Positions 141 through 23,870 of a stretch of 25,295 bases of DNA are shown in pieces. Made by a program: the position numbers and the translations under genes. The stretch is from a virus: positions 1-25,295 of the IMG/VR virus record IMGVR_UViG_3300031851_000167; one strand, written 5' to 3'. The notes under the pieces were generated by a model. It saw only the letters and a list, made by a program, of their open reading frames with translations, was not told the DNA's origin and did not search any database. The number at the start of each line of letters is the position of its first letter. Positions within the stretch are counted from its first letter, which is position 1.

Positions 141-170
141 AGTATATCAATCCTTCGGAATCTCAATGTC
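141..170 (-). promoter_or_regulatory. class A promoter of the gene starting at 120
   Basis: On the minus strand the element TTGAGATTCCGAAG is followed by the box ATTGATATAC. The first A of the box lies 31 nt before the ATG at 120. The element sits inside the last codons of the 39-residue gene, and that gene's TGA stop lies within the TATA box. Confidence 0.75.
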
Positions 171-1519: not shown

Positions 1520-2590
1520 TCAGACGGTTGCGATACCGTGTAGCAGACAAAGTGCTTCGGCGTATCGGCAATTGAATGCGATGTCTTGGCGAGGGATTAA
1601 GACGAAGCGGTCTTTGGTTGGCTCGTCAAGGAATCCCATGCTGAATCGGCGGTCTGCATCGGTTGGGTTGCCAATCAATGGAGAACGGTTGTGAACCAAT
1701 AGTGCGACGGTCTTGTCTTGAACCGCTGTGACACCGTTGACAGTTCCAGTTTGGTATTTTCCTGTCCAGTTTAGGTTGGTTGGGATAACACCAGTTGCGA
1801 ACACACGGATGCCATAGATACGACCAAGTTCCCCAGAGAGGATGGTTGCGCCAGCACCGTATTTGTCGACGGTTTGGAGTTCTTCAAAGCCAAGCAATTG
1901 CACTTCAAGGTTGCGAGGAACAATCAGAGAGAGTTCGTCACGGTTGTCAGCGTGAATGCCCAGTTTGTTGATTGCGCTTCTCAAGTGAGTGAGAGCGAAT
2001 GTTCCAGAAACCGACACCGATGTGCCAGCCAATTTACGCATTCCGTTGAGTTCAAGCAGATAGTCGTTGACAAGAGAGCCACCAGTGTTGTTGATTCCTG
2101 TTGGGTTGCCACCGCCGTGTGTGCCGTTGATGTTGTCAGCGAGTGTTGTTTCTGTGTCGCCGTTGACAAGGAGTGATTCCTCATTGAAAGCGAGGCGAGA
2201 TGCGATGTCGTCACGAAGAACTGAAAGCAATCCTTCAACACCGTATGCAATCAGATAGTTCCCGATTGGAATGTTGGCAATCATAGTCACCAGAGTCAAG
2301 TCGACTTCGGTGGTGGATTGGCGTGATTCGTCAGTTGCAGTTCCCGCTGTGGTGTCAGCGAGTGTCTGGGAGTGGAATGCAACGCTGTTCGTCAATTTTG
2401 GAACTTTGACAGTTCTGGTTGACATTGGCATTGATGGGAAAAGACTTCGCATGAAGTTCCTCTCATAGACGATTTGAATAATCTCATCTGCTGTTTCCGT
2501 TGGGAACATTTGAGAACCGTGATTTCCGACACCTGCGAGGGCATCCTTAACTCGTGCGACCATTTCATTAAATTGTATTTCGTCTGACAT
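1520..2590 (-). CDS. major capsid protein, HK97 fold
   Basis: 356 residues beginning MSDEIQFNEMVARVKDAL. The layout fits an HK97-type capsid protein: a helical N-terminal arm, then a conserved hydrophobic segment (TRTVKVPKLTNSVAFHSQTLA), a spine-helix region (IPIGNYLIAYGVEGLLSVLRDDIASRLAFNEE), a glycine-rich P-loop region and a C-terminal beta section ending in IAFNCRYAEALCLLHGIATV. ATG 2590 is chosen because a strong archaeal Shine-Dalgarno GGTGA (2596-2600) stands five A's upstream; a GTG at 2599 would erase this site. It follows the protease-scaffold gene by 39 bp, the usual protease-scaffold-capsid order. A weak box (AGGATAACA, 2610-2619) could give an extra transcript. Confidence 0.88.
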   Translation of the reverse strand: MSDEIQFNEMVARVKDALAGVGNHGSQMFPTETADEIIQIVYERNFMRSLFPSMPMSTRTVKVPKLTNSVAFHSQTLADTTAGTATDESRQSTTEVDLTLVTMIANIPIGNYLIAYGVEGLLSVLRDDIASRLAFNEESLLVNGDTETTLADNINGTHGGGNPTGINNTGGSLVNDYLLELNGMRKLAGTSVSVSGTFALTHLRSAINKLGIHADNRDELSLIVPRNLEVQLLGFEELQTVDKYGAGATILSGELGRIYGIRVFATGVIPTNLNWTGKYQTGTVNGVTAVQDKTVALLVHNRSPLIGNPTDADRRFSMGFLDEPTKDRFVLIPRQDIAFNCRYAEALCLLHGIATV

Positions 2591-2629
2591 TTTTTTCACC
2601 TTTAATTTTGTTATCCTGATGGATTATGA

Positions 2630-3214
2630 TTATTGCCCTCTCGATGCAATTTGGGATTCCAACCATCCAGCGAGTCCGTTCATTCCTTTGCTCACGGCTG
2701 GGGTTGGGTCATGGCGTGTGACCGATTTGTTTTCGACTTTCACGCCTGTGGATGATAGGCTCTTTGGGTTTGCTTCAGCGGATGGTGCGCTTGGCACTTC
2801 TCCGACGAGAGCAGCGACACGCTTGGCGACTTCTGCCTCGACCTTTGCTTCTGCTTCAGCAGCCTCTTTTTCGGCCTTCATGGATTCAAGTTCAGACTTG
2901 AGTGTGTCAATGTCCTCGCTTGATTTAATGTGATTTTCGATGTCGCTCAAACGACCTTCGACTTTGGATAGCACCTTAACGACTTCAAAGAGAACTTCGG
3001 TGGAGGTTGGTTCTCCAGATGATTCCTCTTCGGTTGCTTCAGCGACTTCTTCAACGACTTCTTCAGGGAGTTCTTCAGCCGCCACTTCGGTTGCTTCGAC
3101 TTCTTCGCTCTTTACATTAAGAGCAGGTTCTTCGATGACTGGTTCACTGATTTCAGCGCCCTCAACGAGAACTTCTTCGGTTGCTTCGGATTCAAGAATT
3201 GTATCGTCTGTCAT
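2630..3214 (-). CDS. possible nested scaffold protein from an internal start
   Basis: In the same frame as the protease-scaffold gene, the ATG for residue 316 (MTDDTILESEATEE) follows a purine stretch AAAGGGG about nine bases upstream. It would yield a 194-residue acidic coiled-coil protein lacking the protease domain. Nested scaffold genes inside protease genes are established in tailed phages such as lambda (C/Nu3). Here the start is supported only by position and the purine run; nothing shows it is used. Confidence 0.35.
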   Translation of the reverse strand: MTDDTILESEATEEVLVEGAEISEPVIEEPALNVKSEEVEATEVAAEELPEEVVEEVAEATEEESSGEPTSTEVLFEVVKVLSKVEGRLSDIENHIKSSEDIDTLKSELESMKAEKEAAEAEAKVEAEVAKRVAALVGEVPSAPSAEANPKSLSSTGVKVENKSVTRHDPTPAVSKGMNGLAGWLESQIASRGQ

Positions 3215-4159
3215 GGTGTTGTTCCCCTTTGGTTGTCCTAACGACTCGTCAATGGGGGTATTAAGTGAATCGGTATCTCCAGATTCCGACTTTTGGGATT
3301 TTGATTTGTCTGAAATGTCGTTCAGTATTGCTTTCAAAGCATCCAGTTCTTCACGAAGTTCAGCAATCTCGTCATTTGCAGGCTGCGCTTCGGTGGGGGT
3401 ATCGGACTCGATATGTTTTCCACCGCAACCGCAGGATGATTTTGCAGATTCCTCAACGGGCGATTCAATGTCGCCGCCAGTTGGAGGTTCTTCGGATGGT
3501 GATTCCTCCATCTCCTTCTCAAAGAGGATGGCGATTGCATCTCCCATGTCCTCATATCCAATGATGTGCTTCTCAACATTGAAGAGAGCGTTTGGTGAGG
3601 CTGGAACATCAACGACGCTGGTTTCAAGCCAATCAATCTCGGTGAATGTCAGATAGCATGTGTCGTCGTCTTTACACTCCTTGACAGCCGCACGAGCGAT
3701 GAATCCGATAGAGAACGCACGAAGCAATCCTTTGCGGATTTTCCTGACGATAGACTTCTCGCCACCATCAATGAGTGCTCTGCCGATTGGAACTGAACCT
3801 TCGATTCCATCCCATTCGCCCATCTCAACATCAAGCATTTTTCCAATCACGCCAGAGTCTTTGGAATGGTTGTATAGAATAACTGGGTTCTTGGCATAAT
3901 TGTTCCACGCTGCGAGAATCGCATCTGGCGCAACCAGTTCGTTATGACGGTCAAGCATCTCCGAGTTCCCGACATATACGGGTCCACGAACAATCACATC
4001 ATCGTCGGATGCGGTGTAGCCATCCTCATCCTTCACTTGGTCGGAGAAGTATTTGGTGTCTATCTCAAATGGAATCTGGAACTCCAGTTTGACCTCGACA
4101 TCACGAGAGTCGCCGCCCTTTGAATCGAAGTCGTCGGAGTCAAGGAGAACTGCCTTCAT
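2630..4159 (-). CDS. prohead protease fused to acidic scaffold
   Basis: 509 residues in two parts. Residues ~25-200 match an HK97-type (U35) prohead protease: DRHNELVAPDAI, then NPVILYNHSK with the likely catalytic His98, then KGLLRAFSIGF with likely nucleophile Ser150, then LETSVVDVPASPNALF. Residues ~210-509 are highly acidic and low in complexity, with a predicted coiled coil near residues 380-450 and a basic tail (SVTRHDPTP). This is typical of scaffolding that binds capsid subunits and is then degraded. A CGCGG-type cysteine cluster (SSCGCGGKH) near residue 245 is unusual and may bind metal. ATG 4159 lies ~30 nt from a class C box. An internal ATG at 3214 may give a separate scaffold. 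Confidence 0.85.
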   Translation of the reverse strand: MKAVLLDSDDFDSKGGDSRDVEVKLEFQIPFEIDTKYFSDQVKDEDGYTASDDDVIVRGPVYVGNSEMLDRHNELVAPDAILAAWNNYAKNPVILYNHSKDSGVIGKMLDVEMGEWDGIEGSVPIGRALIDGGEKSIVRKIRKGLLRAFSIGFIARAAVKECKDDDTCYLTFTEIDWLETSVVDVPASPNALFNVEKHIIGYEDMGDAIAILFEKEMEESPSEEPPTGGDIESPVEESAKSSCGCGGKHIESDTPTEAQPANDEIAELREELDALKAILNDISDKSKSQKSESGDTDSLNTPIDESLGQPKGNNTMTDDTILESEATEEVLVEGAEISEPVIEEPALNVKSEEVEATEVAAEELPEEVVEEVAEATEEESSGEPTSTEVLFEVVKVLSKVEGRLSDIENHIKSSEDIDTLKSELESMKAEKEAAEAEAKVEAEVAKRVAALVGEVPSAPSAEANPKSLSSTGVKVENKSVTRHDPTPAVSKGMNGLAGWLESQIASRGQ

Positions 4160-4460: not shown

Positions 4461-4490
4461 AAGTATATCAATGTTTCGTATCACAATGTT
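4461..4490 (-). promoter_or_regulatory. class A-like promoter facing left, no obvious gene
   Basis: Minus strand TTGTGATACGAAAC is followed directly by ATTGATATAC, a close match to the class A motif. No ATG lies at the expected 30-32 nt. It overlaps the promoter region of the plus-strand gene at 4519, making a divergent pair. Confidence 0.5.
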
Positions 4491-4518: not shown

Positions 4519-5019
4519 ATGAACATATTCATCACCGACACGAACCCACGAACTGCTGCTGAAAACCTCGCTGATGTTCACGCAATCAAGATGGCATTGG
4601 AGTCAGCCCAAATGCTCTCGACGGCGTTGTATCACCATGAAGTCGAAGAGAATGAAATGCCATTGACTAAATCTGGAACTGCATACAAACCCACCCATAA
4701 GAATCATCCATGCACCATTTGGGCGCAATCGAGTCGTGGCAATTTTATCTGGTTGGCTCAACACGGTTGGTGGATATGCCAAGAATACACTCACCGATAT
4801 GGAAAAGTTCACGCTTGTCAATCTCCAATCGAGCAAATGTGGTCGCTGGCACATCTCATCCCCGAAGGTGAGATGACACCATTTGCTCAAGCCATGCCTG
4901 ACGAGTTCAAGCACGAGAGTGCTGTTGTTGCTTATCGCCAATACTACATCGAGGGCAAATCTGGAATCGCCAAGTGGGAGAAGTCCAGACCTGCACCAAC
5001 ATGGTTCAAAGGACATTGA
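4519..5019 (+). CDS. pyrimidine dimer DNA glycosylase-like protein (tentative)
   Basis: 166 residues beginning MNIFITDTNPRTAAENLADV. This N-terminal pattern (MNIF.tD.dP..AA..l.D.H.vKM.LE.AQML.TA), then KPTHKNHPCTIWAQ, WLAQHGWWICQEYTHRYGKVH and a C-terminal YRQYYIEGK...PTWFK, belongs to a protein family common in phages. From memory its members have been linked to T4 endonuclease V-type pyrimidine-dimer glycosylases; the link to DNA repair is tentative and the family assignment firmer. ATG 4519 has a TTTATGT box 30 nt upstream, as does the gene at 9242; an upstream in-frame ATG at 4492 is the alternative. First of three plus-strand genes interrupting the minus-strand structural block. Confidence 0.7.
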   Translation: MNIFITDTNPRTAAENLADVHAIKMALESAQMLSTALYHHEVEENEMPLTKSGTAYKPTHKNHPCTIWAQSSRGNFIWLAQHGWWICQEYTHRYGKVHACQSPIEQMWSLAHLIPEGEMTPFAQAMPDEFKHESAVVAYRQYYIEGKSGIAKWEKSRPAPTWFKGH

Positions 5020-5043
5020 GATTCCAAAGAATTGATAAAGGTG
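5012..5043 (+). promoter_or_regulatory. class A promoter of the gene at 5061
   Basis: TTGAGATTCCAAAG is followed by ATTGATAAAGGTG; the box begins 30 nt before ATG 5061. It starts inside the end of the preceding gene, whose TGA (5017-5019) lies in the upstream element. Confidence 0.75.
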
Positions 5044-5522: not shown

Positions 5523-5553
5523 GACATTGAGATTCCGAAGCATTGATATAGTC
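5523..5553 (+). promoter_or_regulatory. class A promoter of the gene at 5572
   Basis: The best copy of the motif: GACATTGAGATTCCGAAG, then C, then ATTGATATAG. The box begins at 5542, exactly 30 nt before ATG 5572. Confidence 0.8.
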
Positions 5554-5900: not shown

Positions 5901-6281
5901 TCAGCGTGTTGACCCAGCACGAGCCATCGCTCGTAGCACTCTGTTGCCATCCGACTTGAACATTTTCCTGATGTTCTTGGATTCGGCAACAACCGCTGGT
6001 TCTAAGAAGGGTTGAGGGCGTTGTTTGAATGTTCCCAGTTCGACGGCTTGGGCGTAGTTCACTCCAGTTCCAGCACCGCCGAATTGCACGATTCGTTGAT
6101 GTTGATTGACACGCTTGACTCGACCAGATGCACGAAGCGCACCAGTATCGACCACGACTAATTTTTTCGCTTTCGTCAGGATTGCTTGTGCGACCTTATC
6201 GAGAGTCTTTTCACCGACGGTCTTATTGAACTCGACAGTTCCAACACTCACGGCCATTTGAGCCTTCACGAATGGATTCAT
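5901..6281 (-). CDS. HK97 gp10-like head-tail/tail completion protein
   Basis: 126 residues. The core pattern matches the HK97 gp10-like family: a helix, then VVVDTGALRASGRVKRV, then IVQFGGAGTGVNYAQAVELGTFKQRPQPFLEPAV, then a C-terminal helix. The TG.L..S and Y...VE.GT......PF..PA motifs are all present. These proteins act at the head-tail junction or in tail assembly. ATG 6281 overlaps the portal stop as ATGA, and GGAGG lies seven bases upstream, so its translation is coupled to the portal. In most phages this gene sits after the adaptor; here it follows the portal, far from the adaptor at 769-1425. Confidence 0.85.
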   Translation of the reverse strand: MNPFVKAQMAVSVGTVEFNKTVGEKTLDKVAQAILTKAKKLVVVDTGALRASGRVKRVNQHQRIVQFGGAGTGVNYAQAVELGTFKQRPQPFLEPAVVAESKNIRKMFKSDGNRVLRAMARAGSTR

Positions 6282-9007
6282 TCTTCAGCCTCCACCGCAC
6301 GAGATAATTTTCCAGCCCATGACAGACCTGCACGACCTCCCCAGAGCATCGCCGCTGTCCACGCTGGGCTATCCTTCGGCTCGTCGAGGAATCGAGCGTT
6401 GCGACCCCACCATCGAATCATTTTCTTCGCTTTGGCAACCGTGATTGCAGTTCCTCGTGCGATGGCTCTCGCTTCACGCAGAGTGGCCGCTTCGAGTCCA
6501 GAGCCACCATACCCATCCTCGAACAATTTGATGCCCGTTTGACACGCTTTACGCACTCCAGCGGGTGGAGTCAAATCCTTCTTTGTCAATGCTCGCTTTT
6601 GGTCGAGAACTGGAACGAGAACATCACTGGCTGGAACGACCTCATCTGCGGGTGGCTCATCGTCGACGGCCACGAATGTGCATCTGCAATTTGGATGCGC
6701 TGGAACAACGCCCTTCGATTCCTCGATGCGATACTTCGCACCTTCATACGGGGCGCATAGGTCACGGTCTGTTCTATCGTCAACCGTCACCAACCTCTCG
6801 ACATATCTGAATCCTGCTCGTCGCATCCCAGCGATGTGGGAGTTCTCGACGACTCTTCGGGTTTCAGTTCGTGCGATTCTTTCATAATAATATGCTGGAT
6901 ATTTTGAGCCATTCGGGTCAATCAAATCCTTCATTTGACCCTTCGCCCATTTCCATGATTCGCCTCGACCAACCATGTTCTCAAAGACTCCGATGATGTT
7001 CTCTCGATGTGAACCGAGTGTGTTCCTCAACGCTGGGAGAACCCATCGCCTTCGCCAGAATGCAATTGCCGCAACATCGTCGGCCATCAAAGCCGAAGCG
7101 ATTCCAGTTGGTGCGAGTGTCATTCCAAGAGATGCGCCATAAACATCGGTCAGGAGAATCTCGGCCTCGACAATCTGCCTTTCCACTGTTGCTGCGATAT
7201 TGGTGTCGATACGACCAACAGCAACCCTGATGTCTGCGATTCCAATTTTGTCCTTTCGTCGAAACATCTTGACGGGAATGTCAAGGTCGACATCTGGAAT
7301 CTCAACCGCCTCGTCACCAGCGGAGAACATTTTGTCCAGTTCGTCAATAACATCGTCGGCGAATTGTTGTTGTTGATTATTCAATTCCGATGTCAGCGCC
7401 AGTTGCGACTTTGAGATGAGAGCATCGTATTCGTCGGCAGCCTTGATTCTTCGAGATTTCATATCGAGCCGAATATCGTCAGAAAGTTCAGGCTGCGATA
7501 TTTCATCGACCCAATCTGGAATCGAACCTGCACCTTTTCCTTCGTCGGCTGGAGATTCATCAGCGGGGAATAATTCCGAGAGTGTGGGTGGTGTCGATGG
7601 AGATTCGGATTCTCCACCCAGATTATCAGCACCAGCGTTGATGGATAACTTCGGAGATAGATAGAACGGGTCGTCGGCTTCAGGCTCGCTCAAACGCTCA
7701 AGACCCAGCATGGCTCTGGCCTCGTTGATACTGACGACGCTCTCTTGACGGAGGTTGCTGATTGCATCCGACTCCGATTTTCGTGTGTCGGCCATCTCCT
7801 TCTCACGGCTTGGGCGAATCGTAGTGAACGAGAACTCCCAATCTGTGATTCCCAGAAGTGGGAGAAGTCGGTTGTTGATAACGGCCTCGATACGGCGGTG
7901 GAATGATTCAATGACATCATACCACGCATCCAATTGTTGTTCTGGATTGGACATTTTTCCAGTTTGAACCCAGCCCAATTTCATTGGTGGGATTCCAAAC
8001 ACGGCGCATATCTCTTCACGATAATAATAGAGCAAATCCAATTGCGCCCCTTCACGAGTCGAGTCCAAAACACGGTGCATATTGAAGCCAGTTCCTCCGT
8101 TGACAGCGACCAATCCGAATGGAGATTTTCCACCAGTCAATTGTTGTTCAAGCAGGGAGAGCATCGCTTTCATCTCGGCGTTGGATATATCACCGACATT
8201 GAGGATGGTCTTAGGGAGAGTTCCAGTATACAGTTCGTTCAGATAGTTCGAGAGATTCAAATGTCCAGCAATCACATTCAGCAGCGAGATGAGGGGAGAT
8301 GTTCCGTATGCTCGGCCATGTTTGAACTTGGAGATGTGGATAACTTTGTCAGATGAGAACTCACGGGTTTCGCCATTGAGTTCTTGACTATATGCCATCT
8401 TGGGTGGTGCAGGTCTGCGATTCCCTGCGGTCAGTTTCATTTGCTCTGCTGGGATAGGCCACACGCTGGTGAGTTCGCCGCCGAATGTCCACTTGACCCC
8501 TTTTCCATCGAGGTTGACATCTGCGGACCCGTCGAGTTCCAGATAAGCGTCACCGAATAGAGCCAAGTCATAGATGAGGGTTTCAAGCCACTCATTCCCG
8601 TTGTCGTCAGGATTCGGATTCTTGAACCATTGTCGAACTTTTTCCAATTGACCCGTGTCGCCAGTTTCCTTTCCATCTGGCAATTTGAAATGATACCCAT
8701 TCCCCAGAGTGTCGTCGACAGTTCGTCGCAGAATTGCGTTCACGACTTCGGATTTCAAACTGATGTCACGAAGCAATTGATACGACACTTTTGTTTCAGT
8801 TCCAGATGATTGTTTCCCTCGACCTTTGGCGGTGGCTTGTCCGATTTTGCTCATGGATGCGAGGCTCTTATAATCCCAATCCATGTTCTCCCATTCGGAT
8901 TTATGAGCGTCATTCACCATGTTCGATAACTTCGCCAAATCCGCTGGGTCAGCGTCACGGTTGCGACCAAGCAGTTTGTCAGCGAGGGTGCGCTTACGCT
9001 CGGCCAT
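6278..9007 (-). CDS. portal protein fused to Mu F-like head morphogenesis domain
   Basis: 909 residues, about twice a normal portal. Residues ~60-450 form a phage portal domain: LKSEVVNAILRRTVDDTLGNG, DLALFGDAYLEL, FSSDKVIHISKF, GTSPLISLLNVI, then REEICAVFGIPPMKLGW. An acidic, Ser/Pro-rich linker follows (~465-515). Residues ~620-780 contain a Mu F/SPP1 gp7-type domain with YYYERIARTETRR at 706 and the terminal DLCAPYEG...HPNCRCTF motif. Residues ~816-900 are a third domain ending in SPAWTAAMLWGGRAGLSWA, a motif I recall from other phage head proteins. The portal ring is the DNA entry channel; MuF-like proteins are packaged minor head proteins. The start is ~30 nt from a TTAAACC box. Confidence 0.9.
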   Translation of the reverse strand: MAERKRTLADKLLGRNRDADPADLAKLSNMVNDAHKSEWENMDWDYKSLASMSKIGQATAKGRGKQSSGTETKVSYQLLRDISLKSEVVNAILRRTVDDTLGNGYHFKLPDGKETGDTGQLEKVRQWFKNPNPDDNGNEWLETLIYDLALFGDAYLELDGSADVNLDGKGVKWTFGGELTSVWPIPAEQMKLTAGNRRPAPPKMAYSQELNGETREFSSDKVIHISKFKHGRAYGTSPLISLLNVIAGHLNLSNYLNELYTGTLPKTILNVGDISNAEMKAMLSLLEQQLTGGKSPFGLVAVNGGTGFNMHRVLDSTREGAQLDLLYYYREEICAVFGIPPMKLGWVQTGKMSNPEQQLDAWYDVIESFHRRIEAVINNRLLPLLGITDWEFSFTTIRPSREKEMADTRKSESDAISNLRQESVVSINEARAMLGLERLSEPEADDPFYLSPKLSINAGADNLGGESESPSTPPTLSELFPADESPADEGKGAGSIPDWVDEISQPELSDDIRLDMKSRRIKAADEYDALISKSQLALTSELNNQQQQFADDVIDELDKMFSAGDEAVEIPDVDLDIPVKMFRRKDKIGIADIRVAVGRIDTNIAATVERQIVEAEILLTDVYGASLGMTLAPTGIASALMADDVAAIAFWRRRWVLPALRNTLGSHRENIIGVFENMVGRGESWKWAKGQMKDLIDPNGSKYPAYYYERIARTETRRVVENSHIAGMRRAGFRYVERLVTVDDRTDRDLCAPYEGAKYRIEESKGVVPAHPNCRCTFVAVDDEPPADEVVPASDVLVPVLDQKRALTKKDLTPPAGVRKACQTGIKLFEDGYGGSGLEAATLREARAIARGTAITVAKAKKMIRWWGRNARFLDEPKDSPAWTAAMLWGGRAGLSWAGKLSRAVEAEE

Positions 9008-9026
9008 ACTTAGGCGGTGGGTTGCT

Positions 9027-9039
9027 GGGGTTTAATTGC
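9027..9039 (-). promoter_or_regulatory. class C-like promoter of the portal gene
   Basis: Minus strand GCAATTAAACCCC, core about 30 nt before ATG 9007. It shares the TTAAACC core with the box at 10650. Confidence 0.5.
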
Positions 9040-9179: not shown

Positions 9180-9220
9180 ATTGAGATACCGAGTATTGAT
9201 ATTGAGATACCTTTATGTAT
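9180..9220 (+). promoter_or_regulatory. double class A-type promoter for the gene at 9242
   Basis: TTGAGATACCGAG is followed by ATTGATATTGAG, and the overlapping second copy TTGAGATACC is followed by TTTATGTAT. The TTTATGT box lies 30 nt before ATG 9242; the ATTGATATT box would start transcription near 9225. Confidence 0.55.
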
Positions 9221-9241: not shown

Positions 9242-9457
9242 ATGGACAACCGAACACCAAACCACCTCGCAGATTGGGGAACAGGCCAAAGCAAAATACA
9301 TCTCGTGTCAAAACATACAGGTCGATGCTTAGGATGCAAAAAACAAGCAACCCGCTGGCAAACCAGCACTGAAACCGTTGATGAAGTCAAAGCAACCGAC
9401 TTCGGACTATGTGCATTCGTCAGCAATTTTTGGCTTGACCGAGCCACTTCAGAGTGA
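9242..9457 (+). CDS. small hypothetical protein, plus-strand accessory gene
   Basis: 71 residues beginning MDNRTPNHLADWGTGQSK, with a single CLGC pair in HTGRCLGCKKQATRW and an isolated later cysteine, so a metal site is uncertain. ATG 9242 is preferred because a TTTATGT box stands 30 nt upstream; ATG 9215 in the same frame (MYDRVLVHIMDN) would place the box inside the gene. It ends two bases from the end of the convergent gene 9460-9606. No family recognised. Like the three genes at 4519-5802, it is an isolated plus-strand unit with a class A-type promoter. Confidence 0.6.
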   Translation: MDNRTPNHLADWGTGQSKIHLVSKHTGRCLGCKKQATRWQTSTETVDEVKATDFGLCAFVSNFWLDRATSE

Positions 9458-12306: not shown

Positions 12307-12336
12307 CCCCTTATAACACCTTCGGAATCTCAATGC
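12307..12336 (-). promoter_or_regulatory. class A promoter of the gene at 12287
   Basis: Minus strand CATTGAGATTCCGAAG is followed by GTGTTATAAGGGG. The upstream element is perfect, the box is a variant (GTTATAAGG), and spacing to ATG 12287 is 31 nt. Confidence 0.75.
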
Positions 12337-12350: not shown

Positions 12351-13886
12351 TCAAGCACCGAAGGTTCTCATCGTTGGAAGCCCGCCGCCCTCATCCATCA
12401 TATCGACGGCGATAAGCGCATAGAGCAGGCTGTGGAATGCGTGGTCGTCACCATCTCGACCATACTTCGTCAGGGATTGGGAACGGCGTTGCCTCCCAGA
12501 CTTCATGTCATCCTCGACGGATGAATTGATGGCACACCATTCGTGAATGACCCATTCCAGTTCACGGTCTTTGAACGGCAATACAATCTCTTTGTTCTTA
12601 ATTATCTCCAGTGTCTTTTCGATGTATGTTGTTCGGTCAATGACCGCCATGTTGATGATGTTTCGATTGTTGTCACGCTTCTTGAACTCGTATGGAGTCA
12701 TTGGTCGACTCGAATAATAGCACGAGCAAACACGCTCTCCGAACTCTTCCTGCAGTTCCTTGACCTGCCTCGCACCATACCCAATATCACACACGACCTT
12801 TCGAGAATTGTATCGAAGAATGAGTTCTTTGATGCGCCCGACTTCATCCAGTTCGCCCTCGCCTCTGGCTTCAATTCGCATCGCATTCAATATCCGTTTT
12901 CCATCTGCCGAGAGAATCACGACGGTTGTTGTCAACCCCCAATCAATTCCCATCACGGATTCTTCTGGAATCTGCACCGACTCGACTGGGAACATATCGG
13001 AGTCGATAACTCCCAGCGCAACATCGAATGTCAGCGGCTTTGCTGACCCAGCGAAGAACTCGCCGAGAACTTCATTTTGGAATCTGCGGGGAGTGTATGT
13101 TCCTCGCTTTTGTTCGATGTCAGCAGCACTGACATCTGGGTGCATGACTTGGGTGATGTGATACCCGATGATGTTGTGAACCTGCGTGTCGTGGCCGTGT
13201 GAGTGAATCCATTGTTCACCATCCCATTCGGCCTTCGTGCTGGATTCCCATAGCCTCCAGAACTCCGAGCCTTGTTCACGGGCTGTTCCAGATACGAGAA
13301 CCAATTTGTAGTTCGATTGGGTGAGCATCTCGATTAGCATTGGGAGAACATCGGGGTCCGAATCCTGATATTCGTCGATGCAACACATATCGGCGGCGAT
13401 ACCGAGCAAACCGTGAGCATCGCCCCAGTTCGAGTAAGCATAGAAGTGGTTCAACGACTTTGCACCGACATCGAATGTCTGGTGACTCACGCTGGACTTG
13501 ATTCGTTGCTTTAGAAGGCATCCGTTGTTGACGCTGGACATCATCGCCCCATTGAACCGTTCCTCGACGAATCTGGACACCTGTGGTTGTCTGGGGGCGG
13601 TATAGACGGCATTGAAGTATGGAATGTTCAACAACCCATAGAGAAGGAGGTTGCATATCGTTTCAGTCTTTTCGACTTTACGAGAGCACTTGAGAACGAT
13701 GACCTTCGTCGTGTCATTGTTTTGAGATGCACCGAAGTGGCGATACACTTCTTGGAGATATGGTCGCTCGTGAAGAAGGAACGCTTTCCCTTCGATGGTT
13801 CTGAAATACTGCGCCCAGCGGTCTGGATAGAGAGCAATCTCTCGTGCCTGTTGCTTGGTTAAAGCCTGTCCAGCACCCTCGCCCAT
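12351..13886 (-). CDS. terminase large subunit
   Basis: 511 residues, normal for the family. This is the ATP-driven DNA packaging motor with C-terminal headful/cos nuclease. The ATPase shows a Walker A-like KCSRKVEKT at 66-74, Walker B MCCIDEYQD with D171 and E172, and a coupling motif VSGTA near 199. The RNase H-fold nuclease shows D315 in MGIDWG, D367 in VVCDIGYG and D480/D481 in RDGDDHAFHSLLYAL. The Walker A has Glu where most ATPases have Gly before Lys-Thr. ATG 13886 lies 32 nt from a GGTTGATGG box (13910-13920), a variant of class B. It is separated from the portal by over 3 kb of other genes, whereas terminase and portal are usually adjacent. Confidence 0.93.
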   Translation of the reverse strand: MGEGAGQALTKQQAREIALYPDRWAQYFRTIEGKAFLLHERPYLQEVYRHFGASQNNDTTKVIVLKCSRKVEKTETICNLLLYGLLNIPYFNAVYTAPRQPQVSRFVEERFNGAMMSSVNNGCLLKQRIKSSVSHQTFDVGAKSLNHFYAYSNWGDAHGLLGIAADMCCIDEYQDSDPDVLPMLIEMLTQSNYKLVLVSGTAREQGSEFWRLWESSTKAEWDGEQWIHSHGHDTQVHNIIGYHITQVMHPDVSAADIEQKRGTYTPRRFQNEVLGEFFAGSAKPLTFDVALGVIDSDMFPVESVQIPEESVMGIDWGLTTTVVILSADGKRILNAMRIEARGEGELDEVGRIKELILRYNSRKVVCDIGYGARQVKELQEEFGERVCSCYYSSRPMTPYEFKKRDNNRNIINMAVIDRTTYIEKTLEIIKNKEIVLPFKDRELEWVIHEWCAINSSVEDDMKSGRQRRSQSLTKYGRDGDDHAFHSLLYALIAVDMMDEGGGLPTMRTFGA

Positions 13887-15049: not shown

Positions 15050-15079
15050 CACTATATCAAGGCTTCGGAATCTCAAGTG
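15050..15079 (-). promoter_or_regulatory. class A promoter of the gene at 15030
   Basis: Minus strand CTTGAGATTCCGAAG is followed by CCTTGATATAGTG; the box begins 31 nt before ATG 15030. Confidence 0.8.
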
Positions 15080-15591: not shown

Positions 15592-15607
15592 GTGTCGAGC
15601 GACTATT

Positions 15608-15623
15608 CCCCACCTTTATCAAT
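15608..15623 (-). promoter_or_regulatory. class B promoter of the gene at 15591
   Basis: Minus strand ATTGATAAAGGTGGGG, 32 nt before ATG 15591. No TTGAGATTCC element lies upstream. It overlaps the end of the metalloprotease gene. Confidence 0.65.
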
Positions 15624-16194
15624 TCTTCTGTTCTATCAACACATAAGACTCACACCAAACACCGTCGTTGAATGATTTGCAGCATTCTCGACACGCCGAC
15701 TCTTCGGCCATTCGTCTGGTTCTGAATAGGATTTTTTTGCAGTTCGGACACGCATACTTGAACAGATTCCCGTTATCACGCTCGATACGCTCAACAGACC
15801 TGACGAACTTCGCTCGCTGATACCGATACTCGTCGAACAGTTCCCACTCGGATTCGAGTCTGGTGAACATGGGTCCATGACCTTCTTCACTCCCACATAC
15901 GATGTGAAGCAGTTCGTGATGAATCAATCCTTTCAATAGGAGAGGTTGCATGAGATGATACTGGTCGAAAGCATACCGATTCAAAGACAATGTGAAGTCA
16001 TCTTCACGGAATCGAACTTGAGCCATCGTGCGGATTGTTCCTGCCTTGAGGTATCTCCAGCGAAGCCAGCCTGTGCCACTTGGCAATCCACCAAGCACAT
16101 CTGGTCGTTCAGCACGAAGTTCTCGATACAATCGTCGACAAATTAAGAGATGGTCGACGGACAATGGGTTCGTTAATCGGTCACTCGTTGCCAT
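15619..16194 (-). CDS. SprT-like zinc metalloprotease
   Basis: 191 residues. The family signature is HHELLHIVCGSEEGHGPMF: the HExxH zinc site (H93, E94, H97) followed by a third His at 106. A C-terminal zinc ribbon, CPNCKKILFRT...CRECC, is also typical of SprT proteins. The N-terminus (DHLLICRRLYRELRAERPD) is the usual helix before the beta sheet, which ends FTLSLNRYAFDQYH. SprT/Spartan-type proteases cleave DNA-linked proteins; a viral copy may process DNA-protein complexes or host proteins, but the substrate is inference. ATG 16194 has a perfect GGTGA three bases upstream and overlaps the end of the preceding gene by 22 bp, so it is an internal operon gene translated by Shine-Dalgarno. Confidence 0.85.
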   Translation of the reverse strand: MATSDRLTNPLSVDHLLICRRLYRELRAERPDVLGGLPSGTGWLRWRYLKAGTIRTMAQVRFREDDFTLSLNRYAFDQYHLMQPLLLKGLIHHELLHIVCGSEEGHGPMFTRLESEWELFDEYRYQRAKFVRSVERIERDNGNLFKYACPNCKKILFRTRRMAEESACRECCKSFNDGVWCESYVLIEQKN

Positions 16195-16387: not shown

Positions 16388-16927
16388 TCAAGCCTCCACG
16401 AATAAATTGACGACTCCGTTCTTGACTTCGACGGTGAACTCTCGACCATCACGAGTCCATGACAAATCGCCATCCGACCTGTCGCCAATGATAGCATTCA
16501 CGAACTGCATGATGTCGGTGAGGTTCAATCGAATCGAACCAGCATTGAGGATTTGCTTTGCTCGGTCAGAGAACTTCTCGTTGATGTAGTCGTTGTTTGT
16601 TGGAACGAATGAGATGTTTGGGTCAAATTGAACCATTCCAGCATTGACAAACCTGTTGTTTGATTCAGGCTGTGATTCAGATTGGAACATTTGCTCTTGA
16701 AGCCAGTTCATTCCATTTCGAGTAGCCATCCAACGACGACTATTCTCTGGAGTGTTCGTGATGAGATTCATACCTTTCAATGCCGACATCGTGTGAGAAT
16801 ACGACTTCTCTGGGAGGTTGGATTTGATGATAATGCCTGTCTTATTTTGAGGCTGGTTGGAGTTATTGATGAGCATTGTCAGCACATCTCGCATCTTGTT
16901 CTTGGTGGTTTCACGGATTCCCGTCAT
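16388..16927 (-). CDS. possible winged-helix regulator
   Basis: 179 residues beginning MTGIRETTKNKMRDVLTM. Residues ~1-75 look like a winged helix-turn-helix: helix (KMRDVLTMLINNSN), helix (IIIKSNLPEKSYSHTMSALKGMNLI) and wing (NTPENSRRWMATRNG). The remaining part has a glutamine/serine-rich linker and a small alpha/beta C-terminal unit ending VEVKNGVVNLFVEA. A DNA-binding, possibly regulatory role is inferred from the fold pattern only. ATG 16927 lies 32 nt from a class B box; a TTG at 16942 is out of the expected spacing. It is the first gene of a three-gene operon with the 70-residue protein and the metalloprotease. Confidence 0.6.
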   Translation of the reverse strand: MTGIRETTKNKMRDVLTMLINNSNQPQNKTGIIIKSNLPEKSYSHTMSALKGMNLITNTPENSRRWMATRNGMNWLQEQMFQSESQPESNNRFVNAGMVQFDPNISFVPTNNDYINEKFSDRAKQILNAGSIRLNLTDIMQFVNAIIGDRSDGDLSWTRDGREFTVEVKNGVVNLFVEA

Positions 16928-16943
16928 GTATCTCGCAGGCAAT

Positions 16944-16959
16944 CCCCACCCTTATCAAC
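16944..16959 (-). promoter_or_regulatory. class B promoter of the operon starting at 16927
   Basis: Minus strand GTTGATAAGGGTGGGG, 32 nt before ATG 16927. Nearly identical to the box at 23856-23870. Confidence 0.7.
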
Positions 16960-17788: not shown

Positions 17789-17806
17789 GCCGTTCCCAGC
17801 GCATTC

Positions 17807-17818
17807 CACCTTATCAAT
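17807..17818 (-). promoter_or_regulatory. class B promoter of the gene at 17788
   Basis: Minus strand ATTGATAAGGTGG, 30 nt before ATG 17788. Confidence 0.65.
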
Positions 17819-19402: not shown

Positions 19403-19420
19403 GATTCGAGCCACATTTGC

Positions 19421-19434
19421 ACACCCTTATCAAT
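19421..19434 (-). promoter_or_regulatory. class B promoter of the operon at 19402
   Basis: Minus strand ATTGATAAGGGTGT, 32 nt before ATG 19402. Confidence 0.65.
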
Positions 19435-19581
19435 GGCTTGGTTCTATCAACGAGTTCAATCTCGAACTGGCACATTCCAATCATTGTTTTCGAGTTCCAG
19501 ATGCAGATGATGAAATGTCATAGATGCTCAAGAACAATGATGCAGATGTCATACAGACCGTTCTCGGCCAGTTCCAATGAT

Positions 19582-19684: not shown

Positions 19685-19738
19685 TGATTTTGTAGTATGT
19701 GTGTGTCCTATACCCCCCCTTTGTTTGTTTAATTTATT

Positions 19739-19752
19739 TTAAGGAACAATAG
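19739..19752 (+). repeat. second copy of the 14-mer TTAAGGAACAATAG
   Basis: Identical to 12336-12349 on the opposite strand; here it lies just before the ATTGATAAGGTG box at 19760. Confidence 0.5.
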
Positions 19753-20128
19753 TAGTAAGATTGATAAGGTGATAAGTAGTGGAGAGATGGAACGGGAACA
19801 TTGTGATTCCGAAAAACATAGTCAAAAAATTGAAATCTATTTCGAGAGGATATTCAAAGCGAATCGAAAATGAACATGGCTGTCGAGTTCGATAGGGGGG
19901 GTCACGCACCCAGTCCAGCATACGCCAGCCTGATATTTGTCGAGCATTTGCTTCGATGCCCCGACACGCCAGTTCGTGAATCTCCATCTGGATGGATGCA
20001 CACCCACCCACCCATGCACACGCACGAGTGAACGCTGGTGATACCCACCCACTATATCGGCGACACCATATCGACAGTTCGTCAACACATCTCGGACAAT
20101 TGCAGGCTGGAGAATCCAGACCTGTCAC
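19739..20128 (-). CDS. weakly supported Cys-rich protein, GTG start
   Basis: 129 residues beginning MTGLDSPACNCPRCVDELSI, with CNCPRC and further cysteines (WCRRY, ACAWVGGC). The GTG at 20128 is 31 nt after GGTGAACAACCG (20148-20159), similar to class C boxes, which supports a leaderless start. The first ~85 residues look protein-like; the last ~45 (SFSIRFEYPLEIDFNFL) cover an AT-rich stretch and look less so. It overlaps a plus-strand promoter-like box at 19758. Alternatives are a non-coding region or a shorter real gene. Function unknown. Confidence 0.33.
   Translation of the reverse strand: MTGLDSPACNCPRCVDELSIWCRRYSGWVSPAFTRACAWVGGCASIQMEIHELACRGIEANARQISGWRMLDWVRDPPYRTRQPCSFSIRFEYPLEIDFNFLTMFFGITMFPFHLSTTYHLINLTTIVP
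19758..19772 (+). promoter_or_regulatory. class B-like box on the plus strand
   Basis: AGATTGATAAGGTGA faces right. An ATG at 19787, 27 nt downstream, opens a 28-residue frame to 19873 (MEREHCDSEKHSQ). The copy TTGTGATTCCGAA (19801-19813) of the class A element lies within it, followed by a poor TATA. A short plus-strand transcript is possible; coding is uncertain. Confidence 0.35.
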
Positions 20129-20840: not shown

Positions 20841-20873
20841 ACTACTATATCAATGCTTTGTCAATATCAATGC
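20841..20873 (-). promoter_or_regulatory. class A-like promoter with duplicated box
   Basis: Minus strand CATTGATATTGACAAAG is followed by CATTGATATAGTAGT. The upstream half resembles TTGAGATTCCGAAG at several positions and could itself be a TATA box. Spacing to ATG 20824 is 30 nt. Confidence 0.65.
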
Positions 20874-22010: not shown

Positions 22011-23447
22011 TCACTTGAACCATTCATCCATCGTGTCTTGAGCGACGACAACGCCATCCTTGACACCAGTTAGCACTCTCGTCTTTTCATCTGGCATTGG
22101 AACATGGGGAACATGAGCATCGACGGCTTCAATTCTCTCTCCGAGCCAACGGATAACTGGAACGGCCATCGAGTTCCCACACGCTTTGTATCGGTGTCCA
22201 TCTGGACACTCGGATTCGGGTTTTCCATTCCATTTGATTCGAGTCCAGTTGTCGGGGAATCCCTGCAATCGCTCACACTCAAGTGGAGTCAATCGACGAA
22301 CAATCATCTCTCGCTCGACTATCGCAATCCCACCTTGATTCAAGGTCGGATTAGGTGCAACCGCCGTCAGCGTTGGTGCGACTCCATCGGTCACATTTTG
22401 CAGACCTGAATCTGGATTTGACGACTTCATAGAATTGGAGTTCTTGGCATCGAAGTTCCAGACCGCAGTTCCACATGGATGAGTCAATTCTTCAATCGGT
22501 TCGGGTTCAGGCTGGGCGATGAATGAGTTCCCTCCCCTTGACCCATCCGATGCCGTGAGTGATGATGCAGTTCCTCCGTCGATACCCGACAATCGTATCT
22601 CATCTCGTGAGTTCACCGAGAATCCAATGCCTTCGACTTCATGTGCTACGAGAGCGCAATCGGATTGACAATGAAGTGTTGGTGCGAGGTCTGGTGCTGG
22701 ATTAGACCACTGGGCGGCTTGACCGCCACCGATGCCGTATGTGTCTGGAGTTATTCCTCTTCGTCGCTCGGTTGGTTCAATCCCATCGAACCACGAGTCA
22801 AAGCCTTCTCCAACACCGCTGGCATTTTCTTCGCCCCTGATTCGGAGTGCCTTCGGAGAATCCCGTCGCAGGCTTCCCGACTCAAATAATACCGCTGCGG
22901 AATGTCGCCAATCGCCTCCAAGATGTCCAACAACGAACACTCTTCTGCGTCGTTGTGGAACTCCGAAGTGTTGAGAGTCAAGAATCCGATAGGAGAACCC
23001 ATACCCGCATTCCCCCATGAGTGCGAGAAGGCTTCCAAAATCCCTTCCTCCGTCAGCCGACAAGAGTCCTGCCACATTCTCAAGGATGAACCATCTGGGG
23101 CGAACTGTGTCAATAATGCGGATGAACTCGATTGCCAAGTTCCCACGAGGGTCATCCAATCCAAGTCTTTTACCCGCAACAGAAAACGATTGGCAGGGAG
23201 AGCCGCCGATGATGAGGTCGATGTCTTTGTCTTTCCACTCATCCCAATTCACCTTCGTGATGTCACCCAGATTGGGAACTGTCGGATAACGCTGTGCGAG
23301 GACAGCGGATGGAAATGGTTCAATCTCGCAGAATGCTTGGGGTTGCCACCCAAGTTCATCCCAAGCGACAGATGCGGCTTCAATGCCACTAAAGCACGAG
23401 ATATATTTGATTGGCTTCTTTGGTTTTGATATGTATTCGTCTGACAC
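22011..23447 (-). CDS. DNA (cytosine-5) methyltransferase
   Basis: 478 residues. It transfers a methyl group from S-adenosylmethionine to C5 of cytosine in DNA. Motifs in order: I, SCFSGIEAA at 17-25; IV, GGSPCQSFS with catalytic Cys85; VI, ENV at 123-125; VIII, QRRRRVF at 165-171; IX, RRLTPLECERLQGFPDNW; X, YKACGNSMAVPVIRWLGERI. Between VIII and IX lies a long (~200 residue) target-recognition region with SLTASDGS and APTLTAV phrases seen in phage Dcm-type enzymes. GTG 23447 is chosen because GGAGG stands seven bases upstream and motif I lies near the N-terminus; a GTG at 23483 would be longer and lacks this site. Likely protects viral DNA from restriction or marks it. Target sequence cannot be read from the sequence. 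Confidence 0.93.
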   Translation of the reverse strand: MSDEYISKPKKPIKYISCFSGIEAASVAWDELGWQPQAFCEIEPFPSAVLAQRYPTVPNLGDITKVNWDEWKDKDIDLIIGGSPCQSFSVAGKRLGLDDPRGNLAIEFIRIIDTVRPRWFILENVAGLLSADGGRDFGSLLALMGECGYGFSYRILDSQHFGVPQRRRRVFVVGHLGGDWRHSAAVLFESGSLRRDSPKALRIRGEENASGVGEGFDSWFDGIEPTERRRGITPDTYGIGGGQAAQWSNPAPDLAPTLHCQSDCALVAHEVEGIGFSVNSRDEIRLSGIDGGTASSLTASDGSRGGNSFIAQPEPEPIEELTHPCGTAVWNFDAKNSNSMKSSNPDSGLQNVTDGVAPTLTAVAPNPTLNQGGIAIVEREMIVRRLTPLECERLQGFPDNWTRIKWNGKPESECPDGHRYKACGNSMAVPVIRWLGERIEAVDAHVPHVPMPDEKTRVLTGVKDGVVVAQDTMDEWFK

Positions 23448-23451
23448 ACTT

Positions 23452-23838
23452 TCATGCCTCCTGTGTTGACGGAGAAGGTTCACCTTCTTGACTGTTTTGC
23501 TCGGAGATTATCATGTCGATTGCCTCCAGATTGAAGTCGACTTCGTTGAGTGCTGCGATAATTGGGTTGAGAATCGCACCCAGAATCAGTTCTTGGGGAT
23601 TCGCTTTCACGATGTCGTTGATGCTATTGCGATATGTCTGTGCAATCGCTCGCTCGTTCTTGATTGCATCTGCTTGAACGATTGATTTGTAGTTCGGCAT
23701 CCTGTCGAGAAGGCCGATTATCTGTTCCAGTTCGCTCTTGGCTCGCTGCGTTTCAGCCTCCAAATACTCTTCGTATTGCGCCCCAAGTCGCTTGTCCTCT
23801 TCACGGTGCGCTTCATAGTCGAATCTGTCGTATGCCAT
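23452..23838 (-). CDS. coiled-coil protein leading the methyltransferase operon
   Basis: 128 residues beginning MAYDRFDYEAHREEDKRLG. Long charged helices (QYEEYLEAETQRAKSELEQIIGLL and KNERAIAQTYRNSINDIVK) suggest a coiled-coil or structural role. A more hydrophobic segment (ILGAILNPIIAALNEV) lies near residue 85-100 but is too short and polar for a clear membrane span. ATG 23838 is 32 nt from a class B box. Its stop is five bases from the methyltransferase GTG, so they are co-transcribed. No family recognised. Confidence 0.62.
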   Translation of the reverse strand: MAYDRFDYEAHREEDKRLGAQYEEYLEAETQRAKSELEQIIGLLDRMPNYKSIVQADAIKNERAIAQTYRNSINDIVKANPQELILGAILNPIIAALNEVDFNLEAIDMIISEQNSQEGEPSPSTQEA

Positions 23839-23855
23839 GCTTCAACCAGTGACTC

Positions 23856-23870
23856 CCCACCCTTATCAAG
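23856..23870 (-). promoter_or_regulatory. class B promoter of the methyltransferase operon
   Basis: Minus strand CTTGATAAGGGTGGG, 32 nt before ATG 23838. Confidence 0.65.

Follow-up and report, generated by a model that had tools for sequence, protein, structure and literature searches.

Lineage-specific promoter words suggest private gene-control systems in tailed viruses probably infecting marine archaea

In the halovirus HF2, repeat promoters fall into two classes (PMC8707807). In the crenarchaeal rod virus SIRV2, the early genes share a consensus consisting of a near-identical TATA/BRE with conserved surroundings (PMC11065993), and in SIRV1 and SIRV2 a short virus-specific cis element, the GTC motif, accompanies a canonical archaeal core promoter (reviewed in PMC5569661). 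Among bacterial viruses, cluster A mycobacteriophages carry stoperators, many oriented, asymmetric and dispersed copies of a word that varies among related phages (PMC9283540, PMC6550527). Here we describe a repeated element in 25,295 nucleotides of viral DNA (the window; the whole stretch analysed, from IMG/VR record IMGVR_UViG_3300031851_000167) and compare it with these systems.

The window carries HK97-type head genes and covers 25.3 kb of the genome of a tailed virus of that type (Table 1); IMG/VR contigs with relatives of its capsid reach up to 82 kb. The relative G003 encodes a family B polymerase whose best matches in the phage collection are haloarchaeal tailed viruses, together with an RFC-like clamp loader and primase-like and CobS/CobT-like genes; CobS/CobT have been reported for magroviruses (PMC10160649). 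The group is probably related to magroviruses. Because G003 combines archaeal-type replication genes, a haloarchaeal-virus-like polymerase and CobS/CobT, the host is likely a marine archaeon, probably of the Poseidoniales, an assignment that comes from gene content. The virus MCP found no match in GTDB and 293 Poseidoniales genomes.

Several other features of the window deserve mention. The C-5 cytosine DNA methylase may protect viral DNA. Adjoining the head genes, positions 15619-16194 encode a 191-aa protein, kept in all clades, with an HHELLH motif, a zinc-ribbon-like C-terminal part and a weak SprT-like match, which makes it a candidate SprT-like metalloprotease. A conserved non-coding stretch at 19690-19910, GTGTGTGTCC...CCCTTTGTTTGTTTAATTTATTT and then a pair of class I motifs in degenerate form (19755 and 19801), recurs in G001 (L057 16206-16070), G003 (L054 14381-14554) and G002 (L061 13390-13219). 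An Rfam search of the window, this stretch included, returned no match; the stretch may be an origin of replication or may encode a non-coding RNA.

An earlier note on this DNA had described a repeat family in which TTGAGATTCCGAAG is followed at a fixed spacing by ATTGATATAG. The family is real, with counts far above those in shuffled or simulated sequence. The 14-mer TTGAGATTCCGAAG (E1) occurs exactly at four sites and with one mismatch at a fifth (Table 1), and at up to three mismatches it has 13 sites in the window versus 3.9 +/- 1.9 expected (maximum of 100 shuffles, 8). We defined a composite as at least 10 of 14 element matches, a box 15-18 nt further on and an ATG 28-31 nt after the box. 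Nine composites lie in the window, versus a total of five over 200 Markov-simulated windows (0.025 per window expected), so that the motif is far from equally frequent in random sequence. Two of the nine are doubtful, one at 8760 within the portal gene and one at 19450, where a class II box is also present. The remaining seven are good units, hereafter class I promoters, with 45-46 nt between the start of the 14-mer and the ATG. Orthologues of the gene at ATG 120 carry E1 in G001, G003 and L009, those of the gene at ATG 5572 have class I promoters in G001, G002 and G003, and the site at 15063..15076 is kept at the G002 and G003 orthologues. The best score of a position weight matrix (PWM) in the window, 43 bits, falls on the site at 12320..12333.

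Most of the eight places listed in the earlier note proved good, including the variant at 20841-20873, where the element lies at 20870. The site given as 9180-9220, however, was registered one repeat unit off: TTGATATTGAGATA at 9196 with a box at 9212 is the better reading, and we prefer it because the start at 9242 is supported by the homologue L059 8425, which matches the product MDNRTPNHLADWGTGQ and itself has a class I promoter. Nor is 4461-4490 a full site, since its element is degenerate and the ATG follows at +55 instead of +45/46. The second element is a TATA-like box, as proposed, but ATTGATATAG is not its constant form (TTATAAGG at 12316, for example).

Table 1. Promoter elements and genes located in the window (positions on the 25,295-nt stretch)
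Feature	Position	Strand	Sequence	Box	ATG	Remarks
E1, exact	153..166	-	TTGAGATTCCGAAG	TTGATATAC, 142-150	120	good unit; gene runs off left end
E1, weak and doubtful	4473..4486	-	TTGTGATACGAAAC	4463-4472		ATG only at +55
E1, 1 mismatch	5016..5029	+	TTGAGATTCCAAAG	TTGATAAAG, 5032-5040	5061	good unit
E1, exact	5527..5540	+	TTGAGATTCCGAAG	TTGATATAG, 5543-5551	5572	good unit
E1 variant	9196..9209	+	TTGATATTGAGATA	TTTATG, 9212-9217	9242	good unit
E1, exact	12320..12333	-	TTGAGATTCCGAAG	TTATAAGGG, 12308-12316	12287	good unit; full upstream part AAGGAACAATAGCA
E1, exact	15063..15076	-	TTGAGATTCCGAAG	TTGATATAG, 15052-15060	15030	good unit
E1 variant	20857..20870	-	TTGATATTGACAAA	TTGATATAG, 20845-20853	20824	good unit; ATG at +46
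Class II promoter	15605..15622	-	TTGATAAAGGTGGGG		15591	
Class II promoter	16941..16958	-	TTGATAAGGGTGGGG		16927	
Class II-like promoter	17800..17817	-	TTGATAAGGTGGAA		17788	
Class II promoter	19416..19433	-	TTGATAAGGGTGTG		19402	partial E1 (19450) too
Class II promoter	23852..23869	-	TTGATAAGGGTGGGG		23838	
Class III (putative late) box	9026..9035	-	TTAAACCCCA		9007	portal; same spacing at G001, G002 and G003 portals
Class I gene, 151 aa	5061..5516	+				no Pfam/PHROG match
Class I gene, 76 aa	5572..5802	+				no Pfam/PHROG match; family common to four viruses
Class I gene, 71 aa	9242..9457	+				no Pfam/PHROG match
Class I gene, 104 aa	11973..12287	-				no Pfam/PHROG match
Class I gene, 367 aa	13927..15030	-				DUF6011 / phrog_4046
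Class I gene, 179 aa	20285..20824	-				no Pfam/PHROG match
Capsid	1520-2599	-				
Protease	2630-4159	-				
Portal	6278-9007	-				
Terminase	12351-13886	-				
C-5 cytosine DNA methylase	22011-23483	-				PF00145, E=1.7e-59; G003 also has one

In the window, as in three of its relatives (65-82 kb), the extended form of the element reads GGAACAAAACCA-TTGAKATTCCGAAG, followed after 1-2 nt by a TATA-like box (TTGATAWAG, TTTATAGGG, TTATAAGGG or TTCATATAG). Conservation thus continues about 12 bp upstream of the 14-mer (GGAACAAAACCA) and extends to some 30 bp ahead of the box, in agreement with the earlier suggestion that the element is longer than a normal BRE. A purine-rich, BRE-like CGAAG/CGATA is conserved immediately upstream of the box. 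Scanning four clade A viruses with the PWM gave 78 matches of at least 12 bits, whereas the reversed control gave 0 and Markov sequence 4; 38 of the 78 have an ATG at +45/46, a count that is partly circular, since such sites had served to train the matrix. Because of this training, the independent evidence comes from the scans of viral collections and from the pile-up of TATA-like boxes, which in the four viruses peak 28-31 nt before the ATG (54 in total versus about 1 per position elsewhere). This spacing fits leaderless archaeal transcripts, whose predicted start lies at or near the ATG. The element is best read as the upstream, extended-BRE part of leaderless archaeal promoters (GGAACAAAACCA-TTGAKATTCCGAAG-TATA), and the evidence supports a family of predicted promoters at the seven units in the window.

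Two further promoter classes emerged. Among 100 leaderless TATA promoters of clade A, the upstream element is present at 45, and at 36 TATA is directly followed by a GGTGGG-like sequence (class II); the two are anti-associated (p=7e-4), and 8 of the 100 promoters meet both definitions. The class II signal, TATA-AGGGTGGGG, precedes genes for replication, among them the RFC-like gene and that of a PD-(D/E)XK nuclease. In class III, TTAAACC or TTAATACCC lies 27-31 nt before the ATG, at the portal gene in each of the four clade A viruses and at clade B capsid genes; from these small numbers, class III is putatively the late class. The clade B capsid genes (L208:1720, L211:7950, L217:4871) have TTAATACCC and an AGGAGA ribosome-site-like sequence upstream, and because of the latter, late genes may be leadered instead of leaderless.

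The genes behind class I promoters are accessory. The 35 class I proteins fall into 22 families with zero related pairs inside any one virus, as expected of a promoter family acting on both strands at unrelated genes, the view taken in the earlier note. Homologues in clades B/D were found for 10 of the 35 class I genes versus 20 of 25 class II genes (p=1.8e-4), and it is this shortage that marks the former as accessory. Nine of ten tested class I products have no Pfam match and all ten lack a PHROG match; the sole family match among the ten is a zeta-toxin/AAA_33 kinase-like product in G003 (L052:11338-11829).

We scanned all 2.9 million IMG/VR viral contigs with two composite patterns. Matches came from this virus group and one unrelated contig (L204), where neither box nor ATG accompanies what is a chance match; exact E1 forms are almost confined to this group. 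Within it, E1 is present at 39 of 98 clade A promoters and at 9 of 27 clade C promoters, versus 0 of 91 in clade B and 2 of 89 in clade D. Clade B has GAATAGGCGATAC (E2; 36 of 91) or CTTTGACCGATAC (11) in the same slot. The two clade D genomes examined have TTCACAAAACnwACATG (G310) and CATATAACnwACATG (G309) at a handful of promoters; whole-genome counts of E4 and E5 barely exceed the reversed control, both words being drawn solely from promoter-placed copies. GGTGKG downstream of TATA occurs in every clade and in no control. The class II and III signals and this replacement of words between lineages are absent from the earlier note.

The likely hosts appear to lack the signal. The exact composite of E1 and TATA occurs in 0 of 293 genomes of the Poseidoniales, the inferred host group, and the bare 14-mer at one mismatch gave 27 matches in 15 of their genomes versus 12 for the reversed control, roughly background. 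On these counts we rejected a Poseidoniales origin of the motif. In sampled Poseidoniales pieces we saw AATTGAT-like boxes near -30 and GGAGGTGA ribosome sites, and did not see the element. Because the signal appears to be missing from the likely hosts and related lineages use different words, our sequence comparison suggests that each lineage has its own private gene-control system.

As to what reads the element, the earlier note had offered a virus-specific regulator or a special TFB. Neither the window nor any of six relatives (65-83 kb) yielded a TFIIB or TBP domain, while a Poseidoniales genome used as positive control matched; a special viral TFB is not supported by these sequences, and a putative virus-specific DNA-binding regulator remains the best option. 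A small candidate protein (158 aa for the G003 homologue), whose locus lies outside the window fragment, is encoded by every relative whose contig covers that locus and is absent from two host genomes. The N-terminal half is a predicted winged helix (pLDDT >90 over most of it); Pfam support is weak, and the fold search gave weak winged-helix matches (E about 0.04). In clades A/C it ends in a ribbon-helix-helix (RHH)-like tail, LKQITVNLP...LIRAD, with two predicted helices and the strand unformed in the monomer model. The tail is missing in the E2/E3 clades and divergent in G309 and G310, which use other words. This winged-helix and RHH protein is our candidate for the reader of E1, although the parallel between element and tail spans very few phylogenetic events and may reflect shared descent, and the protein could instead serve replication. 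The window itself encodes a winged-helix-like product at 16388-16927 (HTH_45, E=5e-4, below the curated cut-off) behind a class II promoter. Its identity to the G003 counterpart is only 44%, and G001 and G002 lack such a gene there; with a distribution confined to the window and G003 we rejected it as the general reader.

We consider it reasonably probable that the element is a virus- and lineage-specific promoter/operator serving an accessory regulon. It would form the upstream half of a leaderless archaeal promoter, the half that is specific to the class, and be bound by a viral factor, in a system where promoter class encodes phase. Host TBP and TFB would read the TATA-like box and the adjoining BRE-like CGAAG, and transcription would begin about 29 nt past the box, either on the ATG or immediately ahead of it. 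The additional upstream stretch, GGAACAAAACCATTGAKATTC, continues into the BRE and would be recognised by a viral factor with sequence specificity. This factor, which is most likely a small DNA-binding protein, would switch the accessory genes on or off as a set. Class I, class II (GGTGGG right after TATA) and class III (TTAAACC/TTAATACCC) would each specify an expression phase, and each lineage would fill the slot with its own word, as though element and reader had changed jointly. In this model we infer promoter activity, viral-factor binding, temporal order and the choice of activator or repressor. As a tentative extension, a private cis word per lineage with its matched winged-helix/RHH reader, laid over constant class II/III signals, might amount to an orthogonal promoter code in archaeal viruses, with an evolution resembling that of immunity or compatibility groups.

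An activator is slightly favoured because the distance from TATA varies by no more than 1 bp, and Ptr2 and TFB-RF1, activators contacting TBP/TFB (PMC5569661), would provide the model. The main alternative, possible if somewhat doubtful, is an Aca8- or stoperator-like repressor operator that silences early accessory genes. The common regulatory sequence of the SIRV2 early genes is thought to be Aca8-repressed (PMC11065993), most of the RHH proteins known from archaeal viruses act as repressors (PMC5569661) and the sites overlap the BRE; the strict 16-17 bp offset to TATA, however, suits contact with TBP/TFB, whereas occluding operators are free in position, which is an indirect argument.

It is unlikely that the element is an extended core promoter only, a strong BRE and flanks read by host TFB/TBP without a viral factor. 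The CGAAG by the TATA box does resemble a BRE, E1, E2 and E3 all finish in CGA(A/T) before the box, and the HF2 repeats are active without other viral genes (PMC8707807). Yet conservation runs past the usual TFB contacts, the exact form is missing from the Poseidoniales genomes, core viral genes go without the element, and related viruses swap the upstream part while retaining CGA.

Recombination handles of mobile gene cassettes, with the promoter signal travelling with its cargo, are an improbable explanation. The accessory genes are single, two of them oppose the main operon direction in the window, and two unrelated clade C genes (L202 6501 and 6914; 223 and 116 aa) have an identical promoter stretch of >40 bp, which suggests promoter copying or cassette exchange there. 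Against this, conservation is per base and tied to the TATA/ATG spacing rather than laid out in long identical blocks, orthologues keep the element in place across viruses, and we saw no repeat flanking the opposite end of the genes. Chance repeats are ruled out by the shuffles, Markov windows and reversed controls, and duplicated genes by the protein comparison, leaving this explanation practically no probability.

To our knowledge, almost nothing is known about gene timing in tailed viruses of uncultured marine archaea, and our literature search found no promoter work on magroviruses. A readable promoter code would make the class of a gene predictable from metagenomic sequence alone, and would flag accessory candidates for anti-defence screens. 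Related viruses that differ in this cis element but retain the remainder of the promoter also offer a natural series for studying element–reader co-evolution.

HF2 is likewise an archaeal tailed virus with at least two repeat-promoter classes at different gene modules, kept among relatives and with viral regulators suspected. Its repeats, however, are 58 and 29 bp long, differ in sequence and have reporter-proven activity, whereas here a lineage-specific word is swapped at a fixed slot and the targets are scattered accessory genes. The SIRV2 early consensus resembles class I as a promoter-marked regulon of small, unrelated, poorly conserved genes, although its TTTAWATA core is common to host genes and its sequence is unrelated; early timing and an anti-defence role are features of SIRV2, and the likeness here lies in the promoters. 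The GTC motif of SIRV1/SIRV2 is also a virus-specific cis element by a canonical core promoter, but it lies downstream of TATA, where the viruses studied here place the GGTGGG of class II, class I being defined by a long upstream element. Stoperators share with class I a two-domain reader (here a candidate), but stop elongation at many places, while nearly all good copies here stand at one TATA/ATG distance. The promoters would work like those of HF2 and SIRV2; what sets them apart is the class II and III signals and the replacement of words between lineages.
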